64,000 nt of DNA from Diplonema papillatum (taxonomy: Eukaryota > Euglenozoa > Diplonemea > Diplonemida > Diplonemidae): contig JAPJBO010000490.1 in the NCBI GenBank assembly GCA_030068145.1, forward strand, positions 1 through 64,000, in the 5' to 3' direction. Below, piece by piece: positions 7,489 to 36,791 of this stretch (within the stretch, counting starts at the first letter, position 1; every line of letters starts with the position of its first letter). The position numbers and the translations under genes were made by a program. Below the pieces are notes generated by a model that was given only the letters and a program-made list of their open reading frames with translations, had not been told where the DNA came from and made no database searches.

Positions 7489-9075
7489 TCATCCAAGCTC
7501 CTGTTTTAGAAACTTGAGGATGTCGCCGTCGTCGCTGCACGAAAAATCAGGCAGCTCGCCCTTGAGCCAACCTCGTTCGAAGGTTCGCAGCTCCCCGTTG
7601 AGTTCCATCTGGTCCAGCATTTCGCCACTGCTCCCGGCCTTTGAGCGAAGAAACTGCGCGTACAACTGCCAGCGCTTGGCGTAGTACTTTTCGGTTAGGC
7701 CCGCCCACGCCTTCTTCGCATAGTCTTGTAGCTGGGAGTCTGGGAACGACCAAGTCGTAACTTGCACGGCCATATTCCAGCGGAGCGCACGAGCCTCGTC
7801 GGTCGACTGCGCCCACTGTTCTGCGTCGTCTATCCAGCAGCCTAGCTGTGTGTTTTCGTCCGTCGCCAGTACCGTTTCTATCTTTGCGACCACCTCGTCC
7901 ATTAAATCCAAAACGTCTTCCACGTCCAACCAGTCGCTTTTCAGTCGCTGGTTGATTGCCTCCAGTTGCCTACAAAAGAAGCTCTGCATGATGATGTTCG
8001 TGATCGCAGCGACGTCCCGCCTCCAGTTCACAATATGTTGCAGGTCCGAGAAGTCAACAAATTCTTGCCATGCCACGAGTACGCTGGAGGAAACGATGCC
8101 CCCGACACACGATTCAAACAGTTTCGGACGCGAGAGCAGCATCCATTTGTCCGTATGCTGTTCGACTTCTCCGTTGTAAAACTCATTAACGAACACCCTC
8201 CACACCTTTATAACAGCATGGTCCGTTGCTACCGCATACCGCGAAGCGACCCACTCGTCTATCCACGCATCGGTGTCCTCTTCAGCCCCAGTGCCGGTCC
8301 AGGCCAAGTCCAGATAGAAGTCATACACGATGGGGTTCTGTCCTGGCGCTTCCATCGTTATCCCCAACCCGACCACCGCGTGGCCACTTCCGAGCGCCGC
8401 TTGCGCCTGCTGCTTGTACAGGTCCAAATTCCCGTACATGCCGGAACGGCCCCCGAAATTGTGGAGCAGCCCGAGCACATATGGATGCCCCTTAAAGCCG
8501 GACGTCTTCGCCGCCAAGGGATCGATATCACTGGCCACGTCGATGACAAGAACGTCGGAGGTGGGCAGCCCTCGCAAGTACTCGTTCATCGCATTATAAT
8601 TGTCGGCCCTCCACCAATCGTCCTCAAACATGCTCCCTTGCACCAACAACTTCCCGTACGGGTCCCCCTTCTTAACTGCGGAGTACAACGCTGCTGCAGC
8701 GGCTTCGATGTATCCCGGAGCCCTCTGCGTCTCGCCCCAGCCGCCGTTGCTGTCTGCGCTGTAAAAATGGGCGGACCACCCGTACGCCTTGCGTTGCGCC
8801 TGCACAAACGCGGTGGCGATGCGGGCAAAAAGCGGATCGTCTCCGGCGAGGAACAAAGGAGCTTCGAAGTCTTCCCAAGGCTGCCCTTTGGCGAAAGAGG
8901 CTTTCGGGTGCCTGAACAGCAGGGCGGTGGGCACGTGGCCTGCGAAAGCCGGCAGCACTGGTTGCATGCCGAAGCTTCGCATTCGTGCGAGAATCTTCTT
9001 CTGCAGTTCGTGCTGGCTTTCAATAAAGTCGATGGTGATCGGACCCATCCAATGCTCAGCTTTGCCATTGCGACT
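7489..9075 (-). CDS. NAGLU: alpha-N-acetylglucosaminidase, exon 2 (catalytic barrel and C-terminal domain)
   Basis: This exon encodes the last 528 residues of NAGLU (glycoside hydrolase family 89), the lysosomal exo-enzyme that removes terminal alpha-N-acetylglucosamine in heparan sulfate breakdown. It carries the family blocks MRSFGMQPVLPAFAGHVP, LLHNFGG and GQNPIVYDF and the all-helical C-terminal domain. Catalytic glutamates are plausibly the E of WGETQR and the E of ITMEAPGQN, aligning with the two known family acids. The 5' edge is set by an acceptor (ACCGCAG|AGTCGC) that restores the family segment R.G....W.GP in frame with exon 1. The stop is at 7,489-7,491. Exon 1 is 9.7 kb upstream at 18,753-20,657, across an intron filled by transposons. 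Both exon frames are intact, so the gene looks functional. Confidence 0.93.
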   Translation of the reverse strand, partial: SRNGKAEHWMGPITIDFIESQHELQKKILARMRSFGMQPVLPAFAGHVPTALLFRHPKASFAKGQPWEDFEAPLFLAGDDPLFARIATAFVQAQRKAYGWSAHFYSADSNGGWGETQRAPGYIEAAAAALYSAVKKGDPYGKLLVQGSMFEDDWWRADNYNAMNEYLRGLPTSDVLVIDVASDIDPLAAKTSGFKGHPYVLGLLHNFGGRSGMYGNLDLYKQQAQAALGSGHAVVGLGITMEAPGQNPIVYDFYLDLAWTGTGAEEDTDAWIDEWVASRYAVATDHAVIKVWRVFVNEFYNGEVEQHTDKWMLLSRPKLFESCVGGIVSSSVLVAWQEFVDFSDLQHIVNWRRDVAAITNIIMQSFFCRQLEAINQRLKSDWLDVEDVLDLMDEVVAKIETVLATDENTQLGCWIDDAEQWAQSTDEARALRWNMAVQVTTWSFPDSQLQDYAKKAWAGLTEKYYAKRWQLYAQFLRSKAGSSGEMLDQMELNGELRTFERGWLKGELPDFSCSDDGDILKFLKQELG

Positions 9076-9919
9076 CTGCGGTAATTTGGGTTCTTACGTT
9101 GGTAGACACTCAGGTGGGGCCTGCAGGTACGATACATATCCCGCTCACGTTTCCTTACAACAAGACAAAGACGTTTCCGTAGTACGTAAGAAACCGTACA
9201 CCGCGAGAGTAGGAGAATGTAGAAAAGGGAAACTAGAGTTTTCGTTGACCGCACTAACCCTGAGCCCAAATCCTGGACGTGGTTTCAAGTGGCAAATGAT
9301 CATGATCAGAAGGTCCTACTTGGGCGGTTCAGTTTCCTCACACATTGCATGTGGCCAAAAATAAAAGAACGGCGCTTTCATCCGACTTGGCCCTACAAGC
9401 CCGGGGGCTTGCAAGAACGTACGTGCTCGACACCGCTCTGGTCCCATTTGCACCGGGGTATCCTGAACCTGAGTATTGACTGGTACATAGCCCTACCCCT
9501 AACCTACCCGAAAGGTGTCTACCGGGGTTAGAAAGCTGGGCTGGGGCGGCACATGTGGGCACAGATGTGTTACAAGCTACCGCAGGTGTCCAAAACCCCG
9601 GCCCCTCAGCGAAGCCGGCAGCCAAGCCCCAACCCAGCTCCGGGCTGGGTGACACCTTTCTCTTATCAACCAGTCTGCGGAGTCTGTTCATTGAACCGGG
9701 ACCCTAAAAGCGAGCGCGGCCACTGCCTCCCGCCCCTCCATGGCCTGGTGGTGGCGGCCGCACACTACACGACCGCCAGGTTTGCGGCCAGAAACAGAAC
9801 GTTTCGTGCTTGCCATCAATGACTGTCCATGAGGAAACTGGACACCTACGGAGGCTGATAAAGACAACGTACCGTGGGATTTGCATGTTCTTTATTTACC
9901 GATATGGGGGGGGGGGGGG

Positions 9920-10506
9920 CGTTGTTGTTGGTGCTGGTTTTGTGGGATGAAGTAGGGGAAAGAAAATTTCTTTTTGCGGTGGTCTCCGCTGGCCTGGTAG
10001 TCCGTGCTACCTCCTTTCTTTTACACTCGTTCTCTTCTCTACTCACTACTGTACGTACTCTTTCGCTCTTTTTCTCTCTTTGGCTAGCCAAAACAAAAGA
10101 CTTCTGCGACCGACACCACGAACACATTCGCAATGAATGTGGCCCTGGGCCCCCCACGTGCATACATGTTGAGCAGGGGTTGCCATGTAGCCCGTATCGG
10201 TCTAAGTCAACACTGTTACTTTCATGGGATGTTCACCGGGGAAGGGTCCGACCTAACCGTTAGTCAACAGCAACGTCGAAAAGGGGGAGGGGGAAAGAAG
10301 ATAGAAAATCGGTGGGGTTGACAAGCTCGTAAGTGGTTGTTTGTAGATCAGTACAACCTTAAACTACGCCTAGCACACGGCCAGGCGGTCTTTAACGAAC
10401 CTCCAGTACATTAAACGCAAGTCGGCAGGTCGTCATCAGACGCGGCACGAAAAGCAAACGTCGCCGACGCAGCACTTCAGCAATGCGTCCTCTTATTTAC
10501 AGTGGG
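9920..10506 (-). repeat. 3' pseudo-LTR of the Penelope-like element
   Basis: A 587-bp block from CGTTGTTGTTGG to TTATTTACAGTGGG, matched almost base for base by 17,976-18,562. In the element's orientation it begins just after the ORF stop, so it should carry the 3' end. I looked for a hammerhead ribozyme, as occurs in many Penelope-like pseudo-LTRs: a CTGATGA (minus strand, near 10,438) is present, but the paired GAAA core is not in place. Confidence 0.88.
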
Positions 10507-10565
10507 CACCGTACCTGAACTCAGCCCCGCTAGGCCGAGATTCCGGCTGTTCCGCAGGGCATACA

Positions 10566-13500
10566 TCACTCCCCGAAGTTGACGTACGTGCAGAGACGTT
10601 CGTGCACATGCAGGCCTCTGAGGCCCCGGAACAATCGACCGTCCTTGGTGCGGTCGGTGAAGCAGCGCTTGCAGCGCAGTTCCGGGGGGTCCTTGGGCTG
10701 TTCAGGTGGCTGGTCGTGTGCTGCCAAAGCGGCGTCGGAGGGCATGGGTTGGCAAGATTCCAGATTCGCGTCGGTACAGGGCGGACTAGAAGGTATCAGC
10801 GGGACCTGCGGTGGGACTGTTGTTGCCATCATAGTAGGTGATGGCAAGCGTTCGACCACCTCGTGGGACGCATTGGGGATTCGTACGTATGCGGCGAGGT
10901 ATATGTCAGTCCAAGGAACGTTGTCGACGTGCAAGACTCGTTCGTCATCGAAAAGCGTCCATTGCATCCCTTGCAAGACGTATGTGACAAAATGGCCGCT
11001 TGTCGTATTTTGTCCCGTGTGTACAACCACCGCGGAAAGGCGTAGTGTGCCGTCCGGCAGTCGCAGGAGGAGCGGTAGGGAAGCGTCATTCCGTAGTCTC
11101 GCACCATCGCTTGCGTAAATGCCGAACTGCAACAGCAGGCACTCGGACGCCACATGCACGTTCATGGTCTCCACAACGGATCCAGCAGCTCCGCAGTCAC
11201 ACCTCCTCTCCGGATTCATAATTCCACGAACACAGAATGCGTCCTCCACCGGCCTTCCACGAGGGACTTGAAGACACCGTACCAGTTGATGACGGGTGGA
11301 TGTGGCGCCACAGGCGATACATCGTGTTGTTGTCGTCATCGTGTTCTCCAGGCACGTCTGGAAAAGCCGCCAATCCGGACAAGCCTCCGTCGTCTCGTCC
11401 GGCCCTAGGGAGCTGTCTGTCCTATCCAGAATTGCAACCAAAGCCTCGTGCGCGTCGTGCTGTCGCGCATCGCAGAACATTGGGAGCATGGCGAGGATTG
11501 TTTCAGCCCCTATCCTTCGGCTGTCTTGGCTGAGCTGGCTCCTCCCCGAGCGCGAGCTTACCAGTAGGACGAAGTACGTCAAGAACTCCTTCAGGAACCC
11601 CCGGAAATTCAGAGGATTCTGCGCAAGACTGTAATACATGTTCTCGATCGGTTCCACACGCAACAAGAGCTGCAGTACCGCATTGAGAAAACAAGTATTC
11701 CCAAGGTTCGGGAGGCCGGCAGGTTCAAACGGTGACGGGTCGAACATGCGGGAGGGCCGTTGGATACAAATGACAGCTTGGCGGCCGACAGCGGGTGATG
11801 ATTCCAGCATGTCAGGCACTGCATGGGACACGTCGCAGCGCCGTTTCGGTCCAGGCTGAGCAGCCTCATCGTCTCTGCGCTTGCGCTTTCCTTTAGTCGT
11901 CCCATCCTGGGGCACAAGATCACGACGCTGCTTCGGAGCCGCAGTGGAAGGCCGATCGGGCGTATCTCGTTCCGTTCGTGTGCCAGGTCGAGGACGGTCC
12001 CTGTATCTCACGAAGGCCTTCTCAGCGAGCAGCCTCTCGACCGCTTGGTCGATGGACTCCAAGTCGGGCATCTGCAGAATGCGTTCCACTTCATGTACGA
12101 GCCACACGAAGTGCGCACGGATCTTCTCGCAGTGATCACCGAACTTCGCTTCTGGGTACGTGTCTAGTAACCATTTACGAAACCCACTTTTTAAGACACT
12201 CTTGCGGTACCCCCGTCTCATGAGCTTCAGCACCGTGTTGTTCATCTCGGTCTTAAAGTCATGGAGGTTGTTCGCAATCCTGCCGTTACGCACAAGCGCT
12301 CCGATGAGGATACTCGACCCAAAGTTCGATGGAGCCGTGGAGAGCACGGATGTGTACGCCAAGGGCTGGTATCGGTATGCCTTCGCTTTGTCGAGGACTG
12401 ACAGGCGCATGTATCTCCTCCCGGACATCTCGGAGACTTCATGTCGAATCCGAATACCAAGGAAAGTGGCGTCCCCAACCTTGGCGTTTGTCTGTTTGTA
12501 CCTCATGTTGTACACAGATTCCGGTGGGGGTTTTGTGCCGAAACACAACAGATCGTCAATGAAGCGGCGTGTCAGGCTAAGCAATGCCGCACGTTGCGTG
12601 TCCCCGTCTTCCAAGAGTCGCATCATGTATTTTCGCTCTTTCGCATAGCAAAAGAGGTTGGCGATGTCCGGGGAAGCGTTCGCACCCATTGGGATGCCTA
12701 GCGTCTGCCTCATGAGAACCCTATTGACCAGAACATAGGTATTCACCAGGCAGAAAGACAAGAGGGTCTTGAGCTCCTGCGCCGAATACGCTGCTTCATG
12801 TGACCGTACCTCCGTGTTTACCTTAAAGGCGAAACAGCGCTTCTTACGAGTCGGCCCGTGTTGGCTCTTCGGACGTACTAATACGAGTCTTCCCGCGTCC
12901 ACGTTCAAACGTGCAGCCTCCGCCGCGAAGGCCTCATTAATCGTGTCCGCAACCGCATTAAGAAGCTCCTCAAGCTCCAGCTGGTCATACATCGTTGTAA
13001 AGTCAAATGTACCAGCGTCCAGCTGCGCGAGTTCGTCCGCGTGTGTCTTCAGGAAGAAGGCCGTGTCGTCGCTCGACTCCGTGATCCAGAAGTACCGGTA
13101 CCCAGTCGCGTTGAACCGAATGTCGTCTTCCCGCCGGAGGATGCTCATGATCGCCTTCAGCAAGCCGGTCAGGTCCAGTTGCGCGTCCGTCGTAGACGAG
13201 AACGTGGTCTTAGGGCGGGCGTCCCGTCCAGCATCGGCCGCCTCGGAGTCGGAGTCGACACAGTTCTTCCGCGAAACCCCAGCGATGTACCGCATGGACG
13301 TCACTTCCTTGTGCAGCTTCAGGGTGCCATATAGGTATGGGAGGACGTTCGATGAGTGTAATCCTTCCCGTCCGAGGTAGGCCTTGTGCCTCGCAATGAC
13401 TTGTTGAGGCGTCTCTTCGCTCGGGGAGTAGTTCGTACTGTGATTGACCTTCGCGTGTAAGTCCTGGTTGTAAAATCTTTTACACACGAAGCCGAAATCA

Positions 13501-15023
13501 TGCGAGCTCTTGTCCACGGGCAGGATCACGAGATGTTCCTGCAACTCCAACAGTTTTTTACGCGCTCCAGCCGTCAGCTCCGGATCGGCTCCCACCCGGG
13601 AGAGGTCAACCGTGGCTAGTATCTTCCTCCGTAGCATCCTTGCGAAGTGCGGAGGGGCGTCCTTGAATTGCTCCTCAACGAACTGGGTCACAGCTTTGTC
13701 GACCTCCCTGCAAACGGCTTCTTCCCCACCGTCCGGTCGGAACTTGCGACCCTTGTCAAAAAGCGAAATTAGCTCGCTCGACGTTTTGAGGAGGTGTGCC
13801 TGCCCGCACGCATGCCCTTGGATGTGGTATCCGTCTAGAAGGTAGCGTTGGCAAGGGCATTCACCAGGGGGAGGGGCCGGGGCAGCAGTTGTTTGTCGCG
13901 AAACATCCGTAAAGTTTGACAGAAGGACCCCGAGGGGAGGATTAAGCGACGTGGAAACCCTCGTGTTCACGAAGTCCGTTGAGTCCGCGAGCATTTCACG
14001 GAGTTCGGTATCGTGACGGAAAACGGCGGCTAGCTTCCTTTCATCCATCATCTTGCTCACCTGCCGTATGCAGAACCAAGGCGTTCGTGCTGCACTCTTT
14101 TTCTTCTTCGCAAGATGGTTGATCTCACTAAGCCTCGCCGTGAGCAGCTCGTCCAGGATTGCTACCTTCGGGTGCTGCAGGTGCTCAACCATGAACATTC
14201 GCACCCAGGTACGAACTCTGTAAACGCGGCTCTTCATCCACGGGTTCACGTCGTATGCCCGTAGGGTGTCCTCATCGAGTCCGAACATGTAATGCAGCTG
14301 CTTCCGGATGCCGAAGTATCGGCCTCGACTTTGGTCCACGTGGATCTGCCCATCCTTCACATGCACCCAGGCGTCTCCGCGCTCTCGAGGATTTTCCGGG
14401 GTAGACTGCCCGCTGTCCGGTTTGCCCTTGAACGACGGAGCAGATCGCGGCTTCTTACCTCGCTTGTTAAAGCCGCTTGCAGTACTAACCATATTGAACT
14501 GCGGCTTTAGCCTCGCGATGAAAGCCATTTCTATCGGCTCGGCAACTTTGTCGAAGTTACCCCCAGCCGCATAGAACGCTTCTGGGACGTCGTAGAGGAT
14601 GAACGCGTAAGGCGGCGAGGGGAGGTTCTGCAAGTGTCGCTTGAACCTGTCCTGCTTGGTGTTCCGGCCAGACCAATGCTTTGTAACCCGCTCCTGCATC
14701 GTCTTGCTCGTCTTGCCGATGTACAGCAGGTTGGCGTGGGCATCAACTAGTCCGTAGATGAGACCCGTAGCGCGGTAGTTGCTCGCGTCTGTCGGGCGCT
14801 GGAGTCTCATCGTCGCGTACGTGTGGTCTAGGAGCCTGCGATACCTCTTCTGGAACCGGGCCGTAAACAGCTCGCCCTGCTCTTTCCACTTCGGCCAATC
14901 TATCTGTGTCGTCTTCTCCGTTTTGCCACGTACACAGTCAGTTTGGAAGAATGGTGCGAGAAAGGGCTTTGCGAACTCCGGGCGTCGACGCATGTCCGCG
15001 TCAGCTGGTGGCAAACGTACCAT
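10566..15023 (-). CDS. Penelope-like polyprotein: GIY-YIG + RT + ubiquitin-specific protease (1485 aa)
   Basis: One uninterrupted ORF. (1) N-terminal GIY-YIG endonuclease, residues ~85-180: GLIY at 87-90, YIG at 101-103, catalytic R112, E162/E165 and LKPQFN. (2) A Cys/His cluster at 388-410 (CPC..HACG). (3) A Penelope-type RT, ~498-950: DKSSHDFGFV, YLYGTLKLHK, FDFTTMYDQL, GIPMGANASPDIA, FIDDLL (823-824 catalytic DD) and FLGIRI. (4) A basic linker with KRKRR-type nuclear signals, ~1008-1070. (5) A USP/UCH deubiquitinase, ~1101-1385: Cys box NLGNTCFLNAVLQ (C1111), RQHDAHEAL, zinc-fold pairs CIAC and CDC, His box SGHFVTYV (H1344) and FDDERV. (6) A C-terminal CKRC..H.H..C finger. N-terminal GIY-YIG matches the permuted Penelope clade (Naiad/Chlamys type). 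All catalytic residues are present. The USP is presumed to act on host or self-encoded ubiquitinated proteins; its substrate is unknown. Confidence 0.93.
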   Translation of the reverse strand: MVRLPPADADMRRRPEFAKPFLAPFFQTDCVRGKTEKTTQIDWPKWKEQGELFTARFQKRYRRLLDHTYATMRLQRPTDASNYRATGLIYGLVDAHANLLYIGKTSKTMQERVTKHWSGRNTKQDRFKRHLQNLPSPPYAFILYDVPEAFYAAGGNFDKVAEPIEMAFIARLKPQFNMVSTASGFNKRGKKPRSAPSFKGKPDSGQSTPENPRERGDAWVHVKDGQIHVDQSRGRYFGIRKQLHYMFGLDEDTLRAYDVNPWMKSRVYRVRTWVRMFMVEHLQHPKVAILDELLTARLSEINHLAKKKKSAARTPWFCIRQVSKMMDERKLAAVFRHDTELREMLADSTDFVNTRVSTSLNPPLGVLLSNFTDVSRQTTAAPAPPPGECPCQRYLLDGYHIQGHACGQAHLLKTSSELISLFDKGRKFRPDGGEEAVCREVDKAVTQFVEEQFKDAPPHFARMLRRKILATVDLSRVGADPELTAGARKKLLELQEHLVILPVDKSSHDFGFVCKRFYNQDLHAKVNHSTNYSPSEETPQQVIARHKAYLGREGLHSSNVLPYLYGTLKLHKEVTSMRYIAGVSRKNCVDSDSEAADAGRDARPKTTFSSTTDAQLDLTGLLKAIMSILRREDDIRFNATGYRYFWITESSDDTAFFLKTHADELAQLDAGTFDFTTMYDQLELEELLNAVADTINEAFAAEAARLNVDAGRLVLVRPKSQHGPTRKKRCFAFKVNTEVRSHEAAYSAQELKTLLSFCLVNTYVLVNRVLMRQTLGIPMGANASPDIANLFCYAKERKYMMRLLEDGDTQRAALLSLTRRFIDDLLCFGTKPPPESVYNMRYKQTNAKVGDATFLGIRIRHEVSEMSGRRYMRLSVLDKAKAYRYQPLAYTSVLSTAPSNFGSSILIGALVRNGRIANNLHDFKTEMNNTVLKLMRRGYRKSVLKSGFRKWLLDTYPEAKFGDHCEKIRAHFVWLVHEVERILQMPDLESIDQAVERLLAEKAFVRYRDRPRPGTRTERDTPDRPSTAAPKQRRDLVPQDGTTKGKRKRRDDEAAQPGPKRRCDVSHAVPDMLESSPAVGRQAVICIQRPSRMFDPSPFEPAGLPNLGNTCFLNAVLQLLLRVEPIENMYYSLAQNPLNFRGFLKEFLTYFVLLVSSRSGRSQLSQDSRRIGAETILAMLPMFCDARQHDAHEALVAILDRTDSSLGPDETTEACPDWRLFQTCLENTMTTTTRCIACGATSTRHQLVRCLQVPRGRPVEDAFCVRGIMNPERRCDCGAAGSVVETMNVHVASECLLLQFGIYASDGARLRNDASLPLLLRLPDGTLRLSAVVVHTGQNTTSGHFVTYVLQGMQWTLFDDERVLHVDNVPWTDIYLAAYVRIPNASHEVVERLPSPTMMATTVPPQVPLIPSSPPCTDANLESCQPMPSDAALAAHDQPPEQPKDPPELRCKRCFTDRTKDGRLFRGLRGLHVHERLCTYVNFGE

Positions 15024-16159
15024 GTTGACCGCGAAGCTCTTGCGAGGATTGTGGGGCCGGGTCCGTATCGTAAAGGGTGGTGCTCTGTACAGGGATCGGG
15101 GTTGCCGGGGGTAGTAGAATGCGTCGGCTGAGGCGTTGACGGAACGTAACGGAACTGATTTGAATTGCTTGAGGGAGGCTGTGCACTGTACAAAGGGGTG
15201 GTAGCGGGATTGGGTGGTGAGCGGGTTGCTGTTCTGGATTATTGGCGGTACTCTTCACGCGACGTACACGGTGTTGTTGTTAGGGGTGTCGGTTTGTTGC
15301 TAAGCTCAAGTCTTAGCGCGCTTTGTTCGGAGGGTGCGTTTTGTGGTCTTGGTTGGGGGTTTTCCCGGTTTGTAGTAGCGAGGCCGCACGGGGGCAGGAT
15401 GGCACCAAGCCTAGACTCTGCCCGGTCTCGTTGCCGATGTCTTGTGGTACAGCGGGGCGAAGTTAATACGATTTAACCGTCTCCCTACCTGTACCGGCTG
15501 CGTTTCTTCGTCGGTTGTGCCATGGGCAGTTGGTTTTCGACCTCTGTACACTGTGTCAGAGGCCTCAGATCGTGGGCGGGTTGTTTTTGCGAGAGGTCCC
15601 CCCGCGGCGTTTGAGGGGACTGGGTGGGTACGGCCGCCAATCCACCTAGACTCCGCCCCCTCATTCCGTCCTAGCATGAAGCATTGACCACGGACATCTC
15701 GGGATTGGAGTCACCTTTCATTCTTGAGCGAAACCACACTCAAAAGGTACTCGCCATCATCCAGAACTGCTGCTTTGCGTCTATTGTCTTCGTCGGCATT
15801 TACATCTAAAACTATGTACAAGGGAGTGCGGAGGTTGTTACCAGTCAGCGTTCTCGCACGTCGCGCGAGCGACCAGGCGGGGCGGTCTTGCAGTCAAGCG
15901 TCTTTTTGTCGCGGCAGCTGACTAGCCCAGTGTCGTACACACGTAGTCACAAACGTCATAACTATGTCAGCGAACTAACCATGCGAGTTGCGTCAGCAGG
16001 GCGTACCGATGGCCTCCAGGGGGGACTTACGGCTCCGGCGTCGTAGCGTCAAACATGAGTATTGCACGTCGTTCGTCGGGCACGGTGTTGAACGTCGTGG
16101 AAAACCGAAATGGTGCCGTGCAGTGGTCGTCGTAGCAGTAGCATCATGTAGGGTTTACT
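15024..16159. other. 5' leader of the Penelope-like element
   Basis: No further coding domain is seen between the ORF start and the leader tandem repeats. The ATG at 15,021-15,023 is the first in frame. The GIY-YIG domain starts 85 residues later, so a slightly later start would not remove it. Confidence 0.5.
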
Positions 16160-17100
16160 GTCCACCGCCAGTGTGAGTCGCCTGAAGTGCGGGTGGCTGG
16201 TGTTTAAGTCCAGCGTTTTGCATCGGCCTACTCTACACGGCAGGGGTAGGTCAGGGGCAGCGCCGTCTGTTGGGTGCGGATGTCGGACAAGCGCAGGTCC
16301 GGCGTTTTGCATCGGTCTACTCCGCACGGCACGGGTAAGTCAGGACGGACAGCGACGTTTGATGAGTGGATGTTGGTCACGCGGCAACGTACGGCGCAGG
16401 GACCGTGTGTAACATATCGTCGGGAGATGGGAGAGGAAGGGATGGGGCAGGTAGCGTCAAGTAGGTTCTCTGACTACCGCCTGTGTGAGCCGCTTGGAGT
16501 GCGGGTGGCCGGTGTGCAACTCCAGCGCCTTGCATCGGTCTACTCTACACGGCAAGGGTAAGTCAGGACGGACAGCGACGTATGATGAGTGGATGTTGGA
16601 TACGCGGCAACGTACGGCGCAGAAACCGCGTGTAACGTACCTTTGGGAGATGGGAGAGAGGAACGGATGGGGGAAGCGTCACGTGGGTTCTCTGACTATC
16701 GCCTGTGCGAGTCGCCTGGAATGCGGGTGGCCGGTGTGTAAGTCCGGCGTTTTGCATCGGCCTACTCTGCACGGCAAGGGTACGTCAGGACGGTCCGCGA
16801 CGTCTGATGAGTGGATGTTGGATACGCGGCAACGTACGGCGCAGAGATCATGTGTAACGTATTGTCGGGAGATGGGAGAGAGGGACGGATGGGGGTAGCG
16901 TCACGCGGGTTCTCTGACTACCGCCTGTACGAGTCGCCTGGAATGCGGGTGGCCGGTGTCTAAGTCCGGCGTTTTGCATCGGCCTACTCTGCACAGCAAG
17001 GGTAAGTCAGGACGGACAGCGGCATCTGCTGAGCGCGGATGTTGGACAAGCGGCAACGTACGTCGTCGGGAAGGCGTGTAACGGCTGGTGCGTGTGTGAC
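16160..17100 (-). repeat. ~222-bp tandem repeats in the retroelement leader
   Basis: Four units are marked by GCGGGTGGC.GGTG at about 16,189, 16,501, 16,724 and 16,945, each followed by GTTTTGCATCGG.CTACTC and ACGCGGCAACGTACGGCGC. The last two intervals are about 222 bp; the first interval is longer (~312 bp) because it contains an extra GTTTTGCATCGG sub-block. The array lies upstream of the ORF and could be a promoter or UTR array; that is inference. Confidence 0.8.
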
Positions 17101-17975
17101 ACGTAGTCGTGATATGGAAACCGGAAAAGAGCCCCGTCGCGTCCAGATGCGGTTGTGGTCGTGGGGTGTGTGTACGTTCACGTCGTACAGCGGGTTGTGC
17201 GTCGTAAACATGGGAACGTCTTTGTGATAGGGACGAGCGTCCCCCAGATGTGCCACAACGTGCGCGTCTGCGAGTAGCACGACACTCCCATGTCGCCTTT
17301 GTCGGACAAGGTTCGATAATCCCGACTTGTAACAGGGCTAGGAAACCAGATCGGCGGCGTAGTAAAACTGAGAAAGCTAAGCAAACCGCTGCGGGATGAA
17401 GCCTGCTACCCGTCCCACGTCCTTGACAAGCCTACTTGCTTGCGTTCTGCAGGAGCCTCGGCAGGAGAGTTCGGTTGCGGTTGGTTGCTTGTGAGCCAGG
17501 TGATGGTGGAGGAGGGGCAAGAGTAAACGTCGTCTGGTGAACCGGTCCAGCCGGTAGGGGTAGGGAGGAAGGTTACGCTGATGGTAAGGTAGCAGTGAGG
17601 ACCAAGACTTCAACGGCTACAAGGCTCGCCCTGAACAACACGCAGCAAGCAGAGGGCTCAGGTCCCAAGCATCGCGAATGTCCTCGCAGCGGCAGCTTTA
17701 GACGACTATTTATGGCATAGCCATCCAGGACCCCTCTCCAGGCGTCCTGTTGGACCACCGCCTGTCGTTCTCGTTGAAAGGCTAGGGGGAGAGAAGTTTT
17801 ATGAAGGCGCACCTAATCCGGCTCCCGTGAAAGAGGCAGAAAAGGCCACAGAGGGGCTAAGTAAGGGCCCATGCGTGCTTCAATGGCTGTCGCCAGAGCT
17901 TGATGCGTAGCGGTATCGCTAGCGTGTCGAGGGCAGCAGATCGCTGACGCGAAGTACCCTTCTGGAATGGGGGGT
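17101..17975. other. retroelement leader, no gene
   Basis: No recognisable domain. At 17,928-17,975 the sequence GAGGGCAGCA..ACGCGAAGTACCCT.CTGGAATGGGG repeats the block at 5,064-5,108, including the terminal G run. Confidence 0.5.
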
Positions 17976-18562
17976 CGTTGTTGTTGGTGATGGTTTTGTG
18001 GGATGAAGTAGGGGAAAGAAAATTTCTTTTTGCGGTGGTCTCCGCTGGCCTGGTAGTCCGTGCTACCTCCTTTCTTTTACACTCGTTCTCTTCTCTACTC
18101 ACTACTGTACGTACTCTTTCGCTCTTTTTCTCTCTTTGGCTAGCCAAAACAAAAGACTTCTGCGACCGACACCACGAACACATTCGCAATGAATGTGGCC
18201 CTGGGCCCCCCACGTGCATACATGTTGAGCAGGGGTTGCCATGTAGCCCGTATCGGTCTAAGTCAACACTGTTACTTTCATGGGATGTTCACCGGGGAAG
18301 GGTCCGACCTAACCGTTAGTCAACAGCAACGTCGAAAAGGGGGAGGGGGGAAGAAGATAGAAAATCGGTGGGGTTGACAAGCTCGTAAGTGGTTGTTTGT
18401 AGATCAGTACAACCTTAAACTACGCCTAGCACACGGCCAGGCGGTCTTTAACGAACCTCCAGTACATTAAACGCAAGTCGGCAGGTCGTCATCAGACGCG
18501 GCACGAAAAGCAAACGTCGCCGACGCAGCACTTCAGCAATGCGTCCTCTTATTTACAGTGGG
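17976..18562 (-). repeat. 5' pseudo-LTR of the Penelope-like element
   Basis: Direct repeat partner of 9,920-10,506, same length (587 bp), differing at only a few positions (for example GTGATGG versus GTGCTGG). It forms the upstream end of the minus-strand element. It should contain the promoter, but I recognise no core promoter motif. Confidence 0.88.
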
Positions 18563-18721
18563 GGGGGGGGGTCGAATAATAACACCTGTGCTATTATTCG
18601 AGTTGTCGAATACTAAAAAAAGTTCCGGGTAGCCGAACAGTAGCAGGATCAAATAGTGGTAGTGTTTTTAGACAACCAGACGTGTCAAATAACTGTCATT
18701 ATTCGACCCCCCCCCCCCCTG
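18556..18721. mobile_element. 166-bp TIR element with G-run termini and TA duplication
   Basis: The ends are inverted: CAG plus a G run plus TCGAATAAT.ACA on the left and its complement on the right, about 28 bp each. TA dinucleotides flank both ends (18,554-18,555 and 18,722-18,723), as in Tc1/mariner-type insertions. There is no coding capacity. It sits between the Penelope-like 5' end and the NAGLU exon 1 donor. The left boundary is ambiguous by a few bases because the pseudo-LTR also ends in TTTACAGTGGG. Confidence 0.68.
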
Positions 18722-18752
18722 TACAAGAAGTAAGTAAAAAAACGGTACGTAC

Positions 18753-20657
18753 CCATGCTAGGAATGCGGGCCCGGCGAAGTGAGTAAGAACATCATCTTC
18801 GGTGAGTCCTACGTCGGTGTATACTTCCATCCATACTTTTTCCTGCCCAGTAAAAGCGAGGGGCAGGTTCACGCCGCGCAGCGCCAGCCAGTCGATCTCC
18901 CGCTCCCACCGCTTGAAATCCCACCACGCCATAGAGTAGCTGAAGGTCACGGGGTTGAACGCGTGCTTGTACGGCACCCTCGACGTCAACTCGAACGCCT
19001 CCACCGTCCAATCAGTCGGATTTTCCGATGGGAAGCTGTCAAACGCGTCTCGGCCTGAAGAGATGGAGACTCCGTTGTGTTTGAGGTACGTGTAAATACA
19101 GCGAGAGGCTGCGACACCTGTGCTGCCTGTGACTAACGTCGTTTCGGTGGTTGCATTGACGGTGCACGTGTCCGGTTGAAAGGTAGGTTGGATAACGACT
19201 GAGAACCGGTCAGCAGACCAAACATCGAGGATGCGGTACAACATGTCGACGACGGCGGCTTGCTGCTCATCAGGTGACGGTGCCCAGTCCGCTGCTGGTG
19301 GTTTAAAACCGCCAGCTAACTCTCGCGTGGCACACAGGTACGACGTTTGCACTGGTTCCGAATAGTCTGCGGGCGGCTCTACAACGTCCTCGTCCGCGGT
19401 CAAAGGCGCCCACATCAAATTCGTGGTGAAATGCTGGCAGCCCCCGGCCGTTCCGAGCGCGATACCCGGGGATTCCGGAGGCGTCCAAAACTTGTAGTAA
19501 TGGAGCCCAAGGACCTTTGCCGCTTTTTCACACTCACCCGCCGTTGTCAGCGGGAAGACAGCGGCAGGGCAACCGTCGGGGCTGTGCACTTGGACGTAGA
19601 GCGGGCGGCACGCGGAGGGTTGACGGTTGATGCCCGGCGGGCCGGCAAAGCCATCGGGGCACGAGCACTGGATGTTGCCGAGCACTCTGTCGGGGTCGTG
19701 GCAGCTGGCTTTCGTTGCGCACGGCGATATCACCGAGCACTCGTCGACGTCGGGACTGGCGCACAGATCCTTGCACGAAGTGCTCCAGCGAGACTCGAAC
19801 TCGCACCTGACTTCGAGCAACTCGCCCCCTCCGCACACACAGTGGCCGCGCGTGCGCGGCTGGATGCGCTCCTCGCAGCCATTCGGCGCCTTCGCCACCG
19901 CCTCCGACTCGCAACTCTCGTGCTGCACCCACCTCACGCACTCGCCCCTCGCCGTGGTGGTGCCGCCGGTCTGCACACACGACTTCTCGCCCAGCGTTGA
20001 CACATACGCAGACCCTGTTCGCGCCGTGCAATGGCCATCCACTGTGCAGGTCACTCCGGTGCAGGTCCAATCCAACGCAACGCATGAAGCCCATGCCTGC
20101 GAAAAAGACGTCGGCTCAGGAGCCTCGGGGTGGATGCCGTGCAGGTATTTGTGGTCCAGAACGTCGCCGTCCTTGCAAAACAGCTCCTGGCCGGGCGAAG
20201 GCGACGCGGTCGAAGGAACCAACGTAGGCCGGGGCGCGCTTGTGTCGGAGGTTGGAGAAGGTGGCGACGCGGTCGAAGGAACCAACGTAGGCCGGGGCGC
20301 GCTTGTGTCGGAGGTTGGAGAAGGTGTAGTCAACGGTGCGAGGGGGATCTTCGTCATGGGAGCGTCAGTCGCGGGTGCGGTCGTGTTGGGCGGGGACTCG
20401 GTGGTGGGGACCGGGGCTTGGGTCGGGAAGGCTTCGGGGGAGCGGGTTTTGACGAACGCGACGGCCAGGACGAACACCACGACGACGGCGGCCAGCACGC
20501 CGAACACGGCGGCCACCGTCCGGTGCCCTCCGCACTTCTTCTTCACCTGCGGCCGCAGGTCGCCGACGTCCCACTCGTCCACGTCGCGGAAGCTGGAGTC
20601 GTCGGTTTCGATGTCCTGCATCTCCTCGAGGGAACCTTCTTCGGGATCGGGGTCCAT
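18753..20657 (-). CDS. NAGLU: alpha-N-acetylglucosaminidase, exon 1 (membrane anchor, EGF-like module, N-domain)
   Basis: This exon encodes 635 residues. An acidic cytosolic tail (1-45) precedes a single hydrophobic segment (~47-70), with no signal peptide, giving a type II membrane protein. A Thr/Pro-rich stalk follows, containing a 21-residue tandem duplication (SPTSDTSAPRPTLVPSTASP). Next are a Cys-rich region and a calcium-type EGF-like module starting DVDEC. From ~470 on it is the NAGLU N-terminal domain and the first strands of the GH89 barrel (FSYSMAWWDFKRWEREIDW, GVNLPLAFTGQEKVW, FAGPAFLAW). The donor TGG|GTACGT ends the exon in phase 0. Known NAGLUs are soluble lysosomal enzymes with a signal peptide, so the anchor, stalk and EGF-like module are unusual. 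The start ATG at 20,655-20,657 is well placed for a short cytosolic tail. Confidence 0.9.
20205..20326 (-). repeat. 63-bp in-frame tandem duplication inside NAGLU
   Basis: Two near-identical 63-bp units (marker GGAACCAACGTAGGCCGGGG) encode the duplicated 21-residue Ser/Thr/Pro stalk segment. It keeps frame and probably only lengthens an O-glycosylated stalk. Confidence 0.85.
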
Positions 20658-30067: not shown

Positions 30068-31276
30068 TCATGGTTTTGATGTGCTCGGCAGTGCGATGAT
30101 ACGCTGAGCGTGGTCAGCAAAGATCTTCTTGGCGCTGTATTGGTACCTGAGAGTGTCAAGCAGTGGGTCCAGTGTCATGATCTGAAGATGGTCGAGGTAG
30201 TTAACGTCTTGGTAGATCCACCGGCCCATCGGCCAGCTACTTCCGTCATACTCGTGGCACTCGCTTCTTGATGACTCCTCGACAATGGGGCAGATCTGAT
30301 TGATCCAGTTCACCAGCCCATCGTTCTTCTGCTCTTCCGCCTTCGTGTGGGAAGTGTCCTTCCCGATCCAGTTCGCGAACGGCTTCAACAGTATGATCAT
30401 GCCGAGGTCGGCCTTTTCGTACCAGTTGCCGCAGCTGAAGAAAAAGCAGTTTCTCTTGGGTGACGTCCGCTCAGTGGCAAAGGAGTAGTAGTACGTGTCG
30501 TTGTATGCCAGCGGCCCTTCTGCATTCGCAGAGCGGACGCCTTCAATCGACAAGTCGTAGCTGGCAATGTCTTTGTTTTCCTCCTTCACGAACGGCGATG
30601 CCTCAACGCGGTCCCAGAACGAGCTGAAGCTCTCACCAGACTCCCGCTCCAGACCCCATTGGTCAAGTTGGATGTCATAAAGGTCGTCGATCACTGTATT
30701 GTCAAGCAGTCCTGCAGCTGTCACAATCAGATTCTTCACCAGTTGCATCAACTCCGCCTTCGTAATAAGATCGACTATAGTCGACCCGCTGAGCACGCCA
30801 CTGAACGCTGTCATGCTGGTGATCCAGTTGTGACCGCCCAGGAAGAGCTCGCTGGTATCTTCTTCACAACCTGAGCCCTCACGCAGGATCCTCTGCAGTG
30901 TGGTTATGGTGGGGCCTCCCATCGAGTGTCCGAACAAGTGAACCTTGTGGTCTGCGTCCCACTGAGGGAACATTCCTTTGCCTGTGTAGTCCCGCCCGAA
31001 CCGTGAGTGGTTGAACTTCCTCGAGTGGCAGACACCATAGTCCACGACTGTCCCGCGCACCTGGGCGTAAGCCTCACACGCCCGGTCCCAGTTCGACGAG
31101 AACTTGCCGACTGACACTGCGTATGTCGTCAATCCAGCCTTCTCCAACGTGCGCTTGTACATCCAGTTATCCGGGGACGATGCCAAGCCGTGCACAAGCA
31201 CCACCGGGTCGCTGTTGCCTGCTAAGGCTTCCGGCAGCAGCAGCGCTGCAAGCAGAAAGAGCGTGCTGGGGTTCAT
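30068..31276 (-). CDS. secreted family I.5-type lipase, copy A (402 aa)
   Basis: A single-exon alpha/beta-hydrolase. A signal peptide covers residues 1-20 (hydrophobic LFLLAALLL, cleavage near ALAG). The oxyanion strand PVVLVHG lies at 24-30, then the family signature VDYGVCHSRKFNHSRFG and the nucleophile elbow GHSMGG (S118). Candidate acid D319 is in KNDGLVNW and H363 in YLDHLQ. These blocks match the bacterial staphylococcal/Geobacillus lipase family I.5, which hydrolyses triacylglycerols or phospholipids. Length is close to that family. It pairs with 35,583-36,791, from which it differs at about 18 of 402 residues. Secretion to the exterior or a vacuole is inferred. A bacterial origin by transfer is possible but untested. 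Confidence 0.9.
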   Translation of the reverse strand: MNPSTLFLLAALLLPEALAGNSDPVVLVHGLASSPDNWMYKRTLEKAGLTTYAVSVGKFSSNWDRACEAYAQVRGTVVDYGVCHSRKFNHSRFGRDYTGKGMFPQWDADHKVHLFGHSMGGPTITTLQRILREGSGCEEDTSELFLGGHNWITSMTAFSGVLSGSTIVDLITKAELMQLVKNLIVTAAGLLDNTVIDDLYDIQLDQWGLERESGESFSSFWDRVEASPFVKEENKDIASYDLSIEGVRSANAEGPLAYNDTYYYSFATERTSPKRNCFFFSCGNWYEKADLGMIILLKPFANWIGKDTSHTKAEEQKNDGLVNWINQICPIVEESSRSECHEYDGSSWPMGRWIYQDVNYLDHLQIMTLDPLLDTLRYQYSAKKIFADHAQRIIALPSTSKP

Positions 31277-35582: not shown

Positions 35583-36791
35583 TCAAGGTGTTGATGTGCT
35601 CGGCAGTGCCATAATACGCTGAGCGTGGTCAGCAAAGATCTTCTTGGCGCTGTATTGGTACCTGAGTGTGTCGAGCAATGGGTCCAGTGTCGTGATCTGA
35701 AGATGGTCGAGGTAGTTAACGTCTTGGTAGATCCACCGGCCCATCGGCCAGCTACTTCCGTCATACTCGTGGCACTCGCTTCTTGATGACTCCTCGACAA
35801 TGGGGCAGATCTGATTGATCCAGTTCACCAGCCCATCGTTCTTCTGTTCTTCCGCCTTCGTGTGGGAAGTGTCCTTCCCGATCCAGTTCGCGAACGGCTT
35901 CAACAGTATGATCATGCCGAGGTCGGCCTTTTCGTACCAGTTGCCGCAGCTGAGGAAAAAGCAATCTCTCTCGGGTGACGTCCGCTCAGTGGCAAAGGAG
36001 AAGTAGTATGTGTCGTTGTATGCCAGCGGCCCTTCTGCATTCGCAGAGCGGACGCCTTCAATCGACAAGTCGTAGCTGGCAATGTCTTTGTTTTCATCCT
36101 TCACGAACGGCGATGCCTCAACGCGGTCCCAGAACGAGCTGAAGCTCTCACCAGACTCCCGCTCCAGACCCCATTGGTCAAGTTGGATGTCGTAAAGGTC
36201 GTCGATCACTGTATTGTCAAGCAGTCCTGCAGCTGTCACAATCAGATTCTTCACCAGTTGCATCAACTCCGCCTTCGTGATAAGATCGACTATAGTCGTC
36301 CCGCTGAGCACGCCACTGAACGCTGTTATGCTGGTGATCCAGTTGTGACCGCCCAGGAAGAGCTCGCTGGTATCTTCTTCACAACCTGAGCCCTCACGCA
36401 GGATCCTCTGCAGTGTGGTGATGGTGGGGCCTCCCATCGAGTGTCCGAACAAGTGAACCTTGTGGTCTGCGTCCCACTGAGGGAACATTCCTTTGCCTGT
36501 GTAGTCCCGCCCGAACCGTGAGTGGTTGAACTTCCTCGAGTGGCAGACACCATAGTCCACGACTGTCCCGCGCACCTGGGCGTAAGCCTCACACGCCCGG
36601 TCCCAGTTCGACGAGAACTTGCCGACTGACACTGCGTATGTCGTCAATCCAGCCTTCTCCAACGTATGTTTGTACATCCAGTTTCCTGGGAACGCTGCCA
36701 AGCCGTGCACAAGCACCGCCGGGTCGCTGTTGCCTGCTAAGGTTCCCGGCAGCAGCAGCGCTGCAAGCACAAAGAGCGTGCTGGGGTTCAT
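35583..36791 (-). CDS. secreted family I.5-type lipase, copy B (402 aa)
   Basis: Tandem paralogue of the gene at 30,068-31,276, same length with no indels and about 95% identical in protein. The signal peptide (LFVLAALLL..TLAG), GHSMGG nucleophile, KNDGLVN aspartate and YLDHLQ histidine are all conserved. Differences cluster near the N-terminus (AVLVHGLAAFPG versus VVLVHGLASSPD, beside the oxyanion hole) and around residues 264-281. Intact frame and catalytic set in both copies, in a background of diverged noncoding flanks, suggest that both are under selection. No intron. Confidence 0.9.
   Translation of the reverse strand: MNPSTLFVLAALLLPGTLAGNSDPAVLVHGLAAFPGNWMYKHTLEKAGLTTYAVSVGKFSSNWDRACEAYAQVRGTVVDYGVCHSRKFNHSRFGRDYTGKGMFPQWDADHKVHLFGHSMGGPTITTLQRILREGSGCEEDTSELFLGGHNWITSITAFSGVLSGTTIVDLITKAELMQLVKNLIVTAAGLLDNTVIDDLYDIQLDQWGLERESGESFSSFWDRVEASPFVKDENKDIASYDLSIEGVRSANAEGPLAYNDTYYFSFATERTSPERDCFFLSCGNWYEKADLGMIILLKPFANWIGKDTSHTKAEEQKNDGLVNWINQICPIVEESSRSECHEYDGSSWPMGRWIYQDVNYLDHLQITTLDPLLDTLRYQYSAKKIFADHAQRIMALPSTSTP

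Follow-up and report, generated by a model that had tools for sequence, protein, structure and literature searches.

Among Penelope-like elements (PLEs), those of the Naiad/Chlamys type, reportedly described by Craig et al. in 2021, are said to combine an N-terminal GIY-YIG endonuclease, a CxC motif and a telomerase-like reverse transcriptase (RT) with pseudo-LTRs and a bias toward insertion into simple repeats, and to be devoid of a hammerhead ribozyme. To our knowledge, no Naiad or Chlamys element encodes a ubiquitin-specific protease (USP). Proteases acting in the ubiquitin system are represented in mobile elements of other kinds. The DNA transposons Ginger1, Helitron/Helentron and Mutator are described as carrying OTU or Ulp1 domains in the available text of PMC2836005 and PMC6431247, and one further example, in the available text of the former, is a Trichomonas vaginalis transposase_11 protein with a peptidase C19 domain (XP_001314237.1; PMC2836005).

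Here we describe an element from the marine flagellate Diplonema papillatum, found in a 64,000-nucleotide stretch of genomic DNA (the window), that is almost certainly a recently mobile PLE with an N-terminal endonuclease, in which one ORF encodes a GIY-YIG domain, a telomerase-like RT and a USP. The window copy belongs to a family of near-identical copies (F1), and two sister families, F2a (P0003) and F2b (L028), possess the same architecture. The features of the locus are as follows.

9075-18752, minus strand: probable host NAGLU intron (GTACGT...CAG) containing the PLE in the same orientation, from the NAGLU halves and splice-like sites
9906-9919: G-run marking the target at the element's 3' end, poly-C when read on the element strand, from the sequence
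9913-10506, minus strand: 3' pseudo-LTR / 3' UTR, a few flanking G included, from pairwise identity with 17969-18562
9920-18559, minus strand: whole PLE, 8.64 kb, from repeat ends and flanking G-runs read from the sequence
10566-15023, minus strand: single uninterrupted ORF, 1485 aa
10590-10673, minus strand: C-terminal CxxC...HxxxC motif, residues 1451-1478, putative zinc finger, by eye
10920-11717, minus strand: USP / peptidase C19, residues 1103-1368, with C1111, H1344 and D1359-D1360 (PF00443, E 5.1e-23)
11733-12023, minus strand: fast-evolving linker, residues 1001-1097 (28% amino acid identity between F1 and F2b)
12024-13583, minus strand: telomerase-like RT, residues 481-1000, with DFTTMY 674-679, GIPMG 776-780 and FIDD 821-824
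13848-13859, minus strand: CxC motif CPCQ, residues 389-392 (CPC 389-391), between endonuclease and RT, by pattern match
14634-14762, minus strand: GIY-YIG endonuclease core, residues 88-130 (PF01541, E 9.8e-5)
16297-17062, minus strand: tandem repeats upstream of the ORF, 222-bp unit, 3.4 copies
17969-18562, minus strand: 5' pseudo-LTR, a few flanking G included, from pairwise identity with 9913-10506
18560-18571: G-run at the 5' end of the element, read from the sequence

The intact 1485-codon ORF that the initial annotation had reported is present, with no stop, on the minus strand, the strand having been left unstated in that annotation. The N-terminal GIY-YIG nuclease it had proposed is recovered by a Pfam profile search, barely above the cut-off (23.0 bits versus 22.6), with the sister proteins scoring at the cut-off (P0003, 22.6) or below it (P0005, 20.9), and a candidate catalytic glutamate is seen by eye in EPIE at residues 162-165. 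The CxC pattern also matches F2, P0010, P0011, P0012, P0028 and P0031, and likewise the relatives P0038, P0039, P0042, P0045, P0047 and P0048. For the Penelope-type RT, also borne out, the Pfam search of the 1485-aa protein recognised no RT family, and NCBIfam and PDB sequence searches produced no usable match for F1, so structures were compared instead: the AlphaFold2 model of the RT (pLDDT 89.5) has telomerase RTs for all of its top 16 Foldseek matches in the PDB, and relatives possess weak RVT_1 matches, below the Pfam cut-off. The identity of the RT is established by its motifs, these weak matches in relatives and the telomerase matches of the modelled structure. The order of domains, endonuclease, CxC and RT, places the endonuclease N-terminal to the RT. 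The CxxC...HxxxC motif, whose region matches no Pfam family, is also recognised by eye in F2, P0010, P0012, P0016 and P0024. As Pfam detects no ubiquitin-like domain in the ORF, a role of the USP in cutting its own polyprotein is disfavoured.

The USP appears complete, as had been noted from the sequence. The match to PF00443 (UCH/USP) spans positions 2-240 of the 254 in the profile, that is, the whole catalytic domain, and C1111, QHDAHE (1188-1193), the zinc-fold cysteines (CIAC 1235-1238 and CDC 1275-1277), H1344 and the LFDDERV end (1357-1363) are all in place. The structural model of this domain, of moderate confidence (pLDDT 61.3), matches USP12 (Foldseek E 4e-18, TM 0.71), and Ubp8, the deubiquitinase of SAGA, is found among the structural matches along with many other USPs. 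C1111, H1344 and D1360 occupy invariant columns of a nine-row USP alignment, with two reservations: P0018, a partial model, has no meaningful match at His/Asp, and the Asp of P0012 is uncertain. At the third catalytic position, F1, F2 and P0020 have Asp-Asp, P0022 has Asn-Asp and P0012 has Asn-His, and the Cys and His boxes can be aligned across PLE families. The domain is probably an active deubiquitinase.

The element is arranged as 5' pseudo-LTR, 5' region, ORF and 3' pseudo-LTR. The pseudo-LTRs, correctly called near-identical in the initial annotation, share 99.5% identity across 594 bp, which speaks for recent insertion and not for selection. The G-run at 18560-18571 is probably a target-site duplication of the homopolymer tract. 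A search of Rfam, at E up to 1, revealed no match to a hammerhead ribozyme or any other family in positions 9300-19000. The NAGLU (alpha-N-acetylglucosaminidase) domain is divided between ORFs at 18699-20657 and 7489-9048, the joins carrying GTACGT and CAG, and the PLE probably sits, sense-oriented, inside an intron of about 9.7 kb within a NAGLU locus occupying 7489-20657 of the minus strand. Transposable elements inside long introns are reported in the available text of the D. papillatum genome paper, and the word Penelope is absent from its main text, so far as available (PMC10161547). Elsewhere in the window, two 402-aa lipase-like genes (PF24708), probably a tandem duplication, are found 5.5 kb apart on the minus strand (30068-31276 and 35583-36791).

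A genome search with the ORF, in which the best 31 of 1354 candidates were scored and copy counts are thus lower bounds, uncovered at least 14 near-identical F1 copies with the whole ORF, on 14 contigs, at least 13 further F1 copies that are shortened or broken, and, among the 31 scored, four whole copies at 68% identity. The presence of the same whole ORF in 14 copies on 14 contigs excludes a chance ORF. Relative to the window copy, the 13 other whole-ORF copies show 1-7 mismatches over 4458 nt, and F1 copies overall 0-10 over the 3.2-4.5 kb compared. Among the 14 whole-ORF copies, nine follow the element colinearly throughout the stretch examined, and five (L008, L009, L010, L012, L013) lose similarity in the 5' region. 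Among the 13 incomplete copies, 10 start inside the ORF and three show no simple truncation: L017 opens with 75 nt of rearranged sequence, an internal part of L020 is deleted, and L024 extends upstream of the ORF with its frame broken. Downstream flanks are common to L005 and L006, and to L011 and L026, and so not all F1 copies are independent insertions; those of the other whole-ORF copies differ.

At the 3' junction, a run of at least seven C is present within 3 nt in 24 of the 27 F1 copies, while L009 and L020 have four C and L025 ends before the usual 3' end. Upstream, a C-run of at least seven lies within 40 nt in 11 of the 13 incomplete copies, the run being six in L020 and two in L023. 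In three incomplete copies the flank, as judged by eye, is repeated on both sides, over about 15 bp in L020, about 37 bp in L022 and about 12 bp in L027, and these are apparent target-site duplications, longer than the C-run alone. Such junctions agree with an element that inserts at C/G tracts and is often truncated at its 5' end. Downstream of an F2b copy lies another USP fragment, which is diverged (L028:6686-7465, 81.7% identical to the F2b USP region of L029), an arrangement that resembles tandem PLE arrays.

The proposal, in the initial annotation, that the USP is maintained by selection holds up, with ratios of about 0.2 between families, but the pseudo-LTR identity on which it was partly based indicates only recent insertion, and our case is built on the between-family dN/dS instead. 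Within F1, the Cys, His and Asp motifs of the USP are kept in all 27 copies, among which this domain shows two synonymous and one non-synonymous variant codons. Between families, with one copy per family used for each region, the USP dN/dS (NG86) is 0.227 for F2a/F2b (95% bootstrap 0.16-0.33; dS 0.57), and it is 0.190 for F1/F2b and 0.165 for F1/F2a, at dS of 1.6-1.9, which is near saturation; the bootstrap upper limits of these between-family ratios are 0.26-0.33. The ratio for the RT is about 0.08-0.09, and for the linker it ranges overall from 0.29 to 0.59 over two runs (0.33 and 0.59 where computable in one, 0.29-0.52 in the other), so that constraint is strongest on the RT, intermediate on the USP and weakest on the linker. 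By these estimates, the USP is under purifying selection between families and is old in this PLE lineage.

Variable presence of the domain is also apparent. The USP is carried by 39 of the 42 RT loci of F1 and its sister families (the best 42 of 10055 candidates scored), eight of these being assigned by the motif check, 10 F1 loci by that check together with a Pfam USP scan, 18 by their position in the scan and three separately. L032 and L039 have lost it through an in-frame deletion of 1053 bp that removes nearly the whole USP and joins the region of the Cys box to the C-terminal motif, the RT and the ORF staying open. With this deletion in common and 99.9% identity across the 5.1 kb compared, they perhaps represent one insertion. 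In the third USP-less RT locus (C207:228317), similarity ends near residue 1031. The initial annotation had considered a fusion that is unique and decaying beside copies lacking the USP; with the domain in 27 of 27 F1 copies and in 39 of 42 RT loci it is neither, although USP-less copies of the kind envisaged do exist (L032/L039). A Pfam scan of the genome for USP, in which the best 149 of 935 candidates were scored and the counts are lower bounds, produced 112 matches that only their score and domain span place with the element families (54 at 85.3-85.9 bits, 17 at 76.7-81.1 and 41 at 76.5), three partial matches, and 34 of higher score, 11 of them retrieved, which are taken to be mostly host genes.

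Related proteins provide a wider view. The RT profile search found at least 56 proteins, and the two protein searches, with the ORF and with the RT profile, scored 7990 and 7994 candidates sharing most words. P0020 (D. papillatum), P0022 and P0012 each have a USP C-terminal to the RT, and the gene models P0018 and P0017 have part of one in that position. The domain scores above the Pfam cut-off in F1, F2a, P0020, P0022 and P0012, and the same domain is present in F2b; no UCH match was found by Pfam in P0010 or in P0016 (the latter on a 2.5-kb contig), which belong to the same RT clade. In the RT tree, built from 30 of 60 proteins, the USP-bearing PLEs form one group with P0010 and P0016 (93/95). 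Relatives with an N-terminal GIY-YIG, by pattern or Pfam, are also present in this tree (P0031, P0039, P0042, P0045), and its 30 proteins include no named Naiad/Chlamys reference element. Another RT-USP protein, P0059, found by a search with the USP part alone and to be treated with caution as it comes from one 3.4-kb contig, is placed in the other large RT clade, grouping with P0046 and P0050 (97/99), and from this placement the USP was probably gained at least twice among PLEs.

No donor gene for the USP was found, the USP-only protein search resulting in five matches at E <= 0.001 among 3948 candidates, and the viral contigs searched contained no relatives. One candidate donor was provided by L052:2002-4107 (G000:C9), a 702-aa ORF made of a metallo-beta-lactamase (MBL) domain and a USP, the latter 55% identical to the element USP and sister to F1/F2 (100/99). 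Over 6 kb of this locus the match to the query is confined to the USP part. From 188 nt past the ORF, however, the sequence matches the F1 pseudo-LTR (77.8% over 221 nt), because of which the locus is rejected as a donor gene and its MBL-USP is taken as PLE-derived; it may represent an old 5'-truncated PLE copy that has joined a host gene, or else a chimeric element. A single clade of the seven PLE USPs alone is rejected (p-AU 0.001), the sole cause being that F1/F2 group with the C9 MBL-USP; once the MBL-USP is included, the PLE USPs are weakly held together (61/86). The USP tree, which contains 10 of the 11 retrieved genomic USPs and the longer C9 ORF in place of L051 (an earlier tree had six of the 11), leaves the number of captures unsettled, due to the long branches of P0012 and P0059. 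One more case is P0028, a protein with a PLE-type RT and an N-terminal OTU-like stretch (GEGNCFFHAL...NHF), without a Pfam match, whose best PDB match is a viral polymerase chain (E 2.4e-4), which we take to be an OTU domain, with OTUD3 at E 0.006.

As to the function, the reading we lean toward is of an element-borne USP, under selection, that deubiquitinates its own RT or ribonucleoprotein (RNP), or a factor at the target. The GIY-YIG domain would cut at or near C/G homopolymer tracts, and the element RNA would be copied by the RT through target-primed reverse transcription, which would frequently stop short and leave 5'-truncated copies. The tethered USP would remove ubiquitin in cis from the RT or RNP, slowing proteasomal turnover, or its substrate may instead be some host protein retained at the target, for example one of DNA repair or of chromatin. 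Being part of the same polypeptide, the USP would act mainly where the RT acts. Protection from degradation or from silencing is what we infer, and we regard the chances as even that the USP works locally, at its own RNP or the target site, and not in some host pathway farther away. Should copies of the L032/L039 type still move, the USP would have to be dispensable or supplied in trans. A broader and tentative proposal is that PLEs have repeatedly gained deubiquitinases (the USP of the diplonemid clade, the separate USP of P0059 and the OTU-like stretch of P0028), that host ubiquitination may in general hinder or regulate telomerase-like retrotransposition, and that element USPs can seed host genes, the C9 MBL-USP perhaps being one.

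USPs act on chromatin in SAGA, and the element USP could likewise act in trans on a host pathway, for example by reversing ubiquitin-dependent chromatin silencing through the ubiquitin of histones or silencing factors. The structural match to Ubp8, one of many USPs matched, would agree with this, and so would the fast-evolving linker that precedes the domain; PLEs also seem to have acquired USPs more than once, which fits a general host barrier. Yet Pfam recognises no targeting domain and the fusion to the RT favours action at the RT, and we find this reading rather unlikely. It is improbable, further, that the USP is usually spliced out, the working product being an RT without it, with the USP made separately or only under certain conditions. 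Five gene models (P0004, P0006, P0007, P0008 and P0009) do depart at or near 'RLVL' in the RT, where GTACGT is found (12873-12878, minus strand), and two of these, P0004 and P0009, join an acceptor before PKDPPEL (10698-10700), ahead of the C-terminal motif, thus skipping the USP; if this splicing were real, some mRNAs would be without the USP. However, the models in question lack RT motifs B and C, so the RT would be dead, the genome paper, in its available text, cautions about spurious introns in models near repeats (PMC10161547), and the whole-ORF models P0002 and P0003 represent clusters of 11 and 10 members, respectively. Models ending or splicing near the same GTACGT join other exons, for example those of RRP12 and Mg/proton exchanger models.

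More improbable still is a passenger, a captured host domain without a role that is carried along because the copies are young. The F1 copies are indeed too alike for a test of selection, and USP-less copies and relatives exist, but between families the frame and the catalytic residues are kept at dS of 0.57-1.9, with dN/dS of 0.17-0.23, and divergent PLEs repeatedly carry a domain of this kind. Finally, a host gene, or a chimera of assembly or annotation joining a USP gene to a retroelement, might be suspected from the location in a probable NAGLU intron and from the annotation 'putative ubiquitin carboxyl-terminal hydrolase 16' given to P0002, a public protein that is near-identical. This is scarcely credible in view of 14 whole-ORF copies on 14 contigs with downstream flanks that differ, except in L005/L006, of the 5'-truncated copies and C-run junctions, and of two sister families of the same architecture; the multiple copies rule it out.

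If the USP is active, D. papillatum would harbor a eukaryotic retroelement with its own selected deubiquitinase on the RT polypeptide, and the retroelement class nearest to telomerase would become open to tests of ubiquitin control over target-primed reverse transcription. For comparison, this culturable model protist provides near-identical intact copies as well as loci that naturally lack the USP next to complete ones. The data suggest that the ubiquitin system of the host is something such elements must manage.

Among the described systems, Naiad and Chlamys are alike in the N-terminal GIY-YIG, the CxC motif, the telomerase-like RT, the pseudo-LTRs, the bias toward simple repeats and the absence of a hammerhead, and to these the D. 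papillatum PLE adds the C-terminal USP and the CxxC...HxxxC motif after the RT. The cellular USPs (USP12/46, USP36, USP21) share the catalytic fold and residues, whereas the element USP is only 18-25% identical to them (among the structural matches listed), is fused to an RT, and is short (approximately 266 aa). Canonical Penelope/Poseidon elements, in the available text of PMC11167929, also possess GIY-YIG and a telomerase-like RT in one ORF, along with pseudo-LTRs, but their endonuclease is C-terminal and a hammerhead ribozyme is present, while in D. papillatum the endonuclease is N-terminal, no Rfam match is seen and a USP is added. The Terminons, giant endonuclease-deficient PLEs of rotifers, are likewise PLEs with acquired accessory enzymes, these being exonucleases, esterases, Rep and others, with no deubiquitinase mentioned in the available text (PMC6431247). 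The DNA transposons mentioned above, as far as their available descriptions go, similarly combine a mobile-element protein with a deubiquitinase-type protease, in one case of the C19 type, but they are not retroelements, and their protease folds differ, except in the Trichomonas case. A literature search, with subscription papers mostly outside its reach, found no published PLE with a USP. Thus the PLE with an N-terminal endonuclease and the element-borne ubiquitin protease are each of a known kind, and it is the USP in a PLE that appears to be new.
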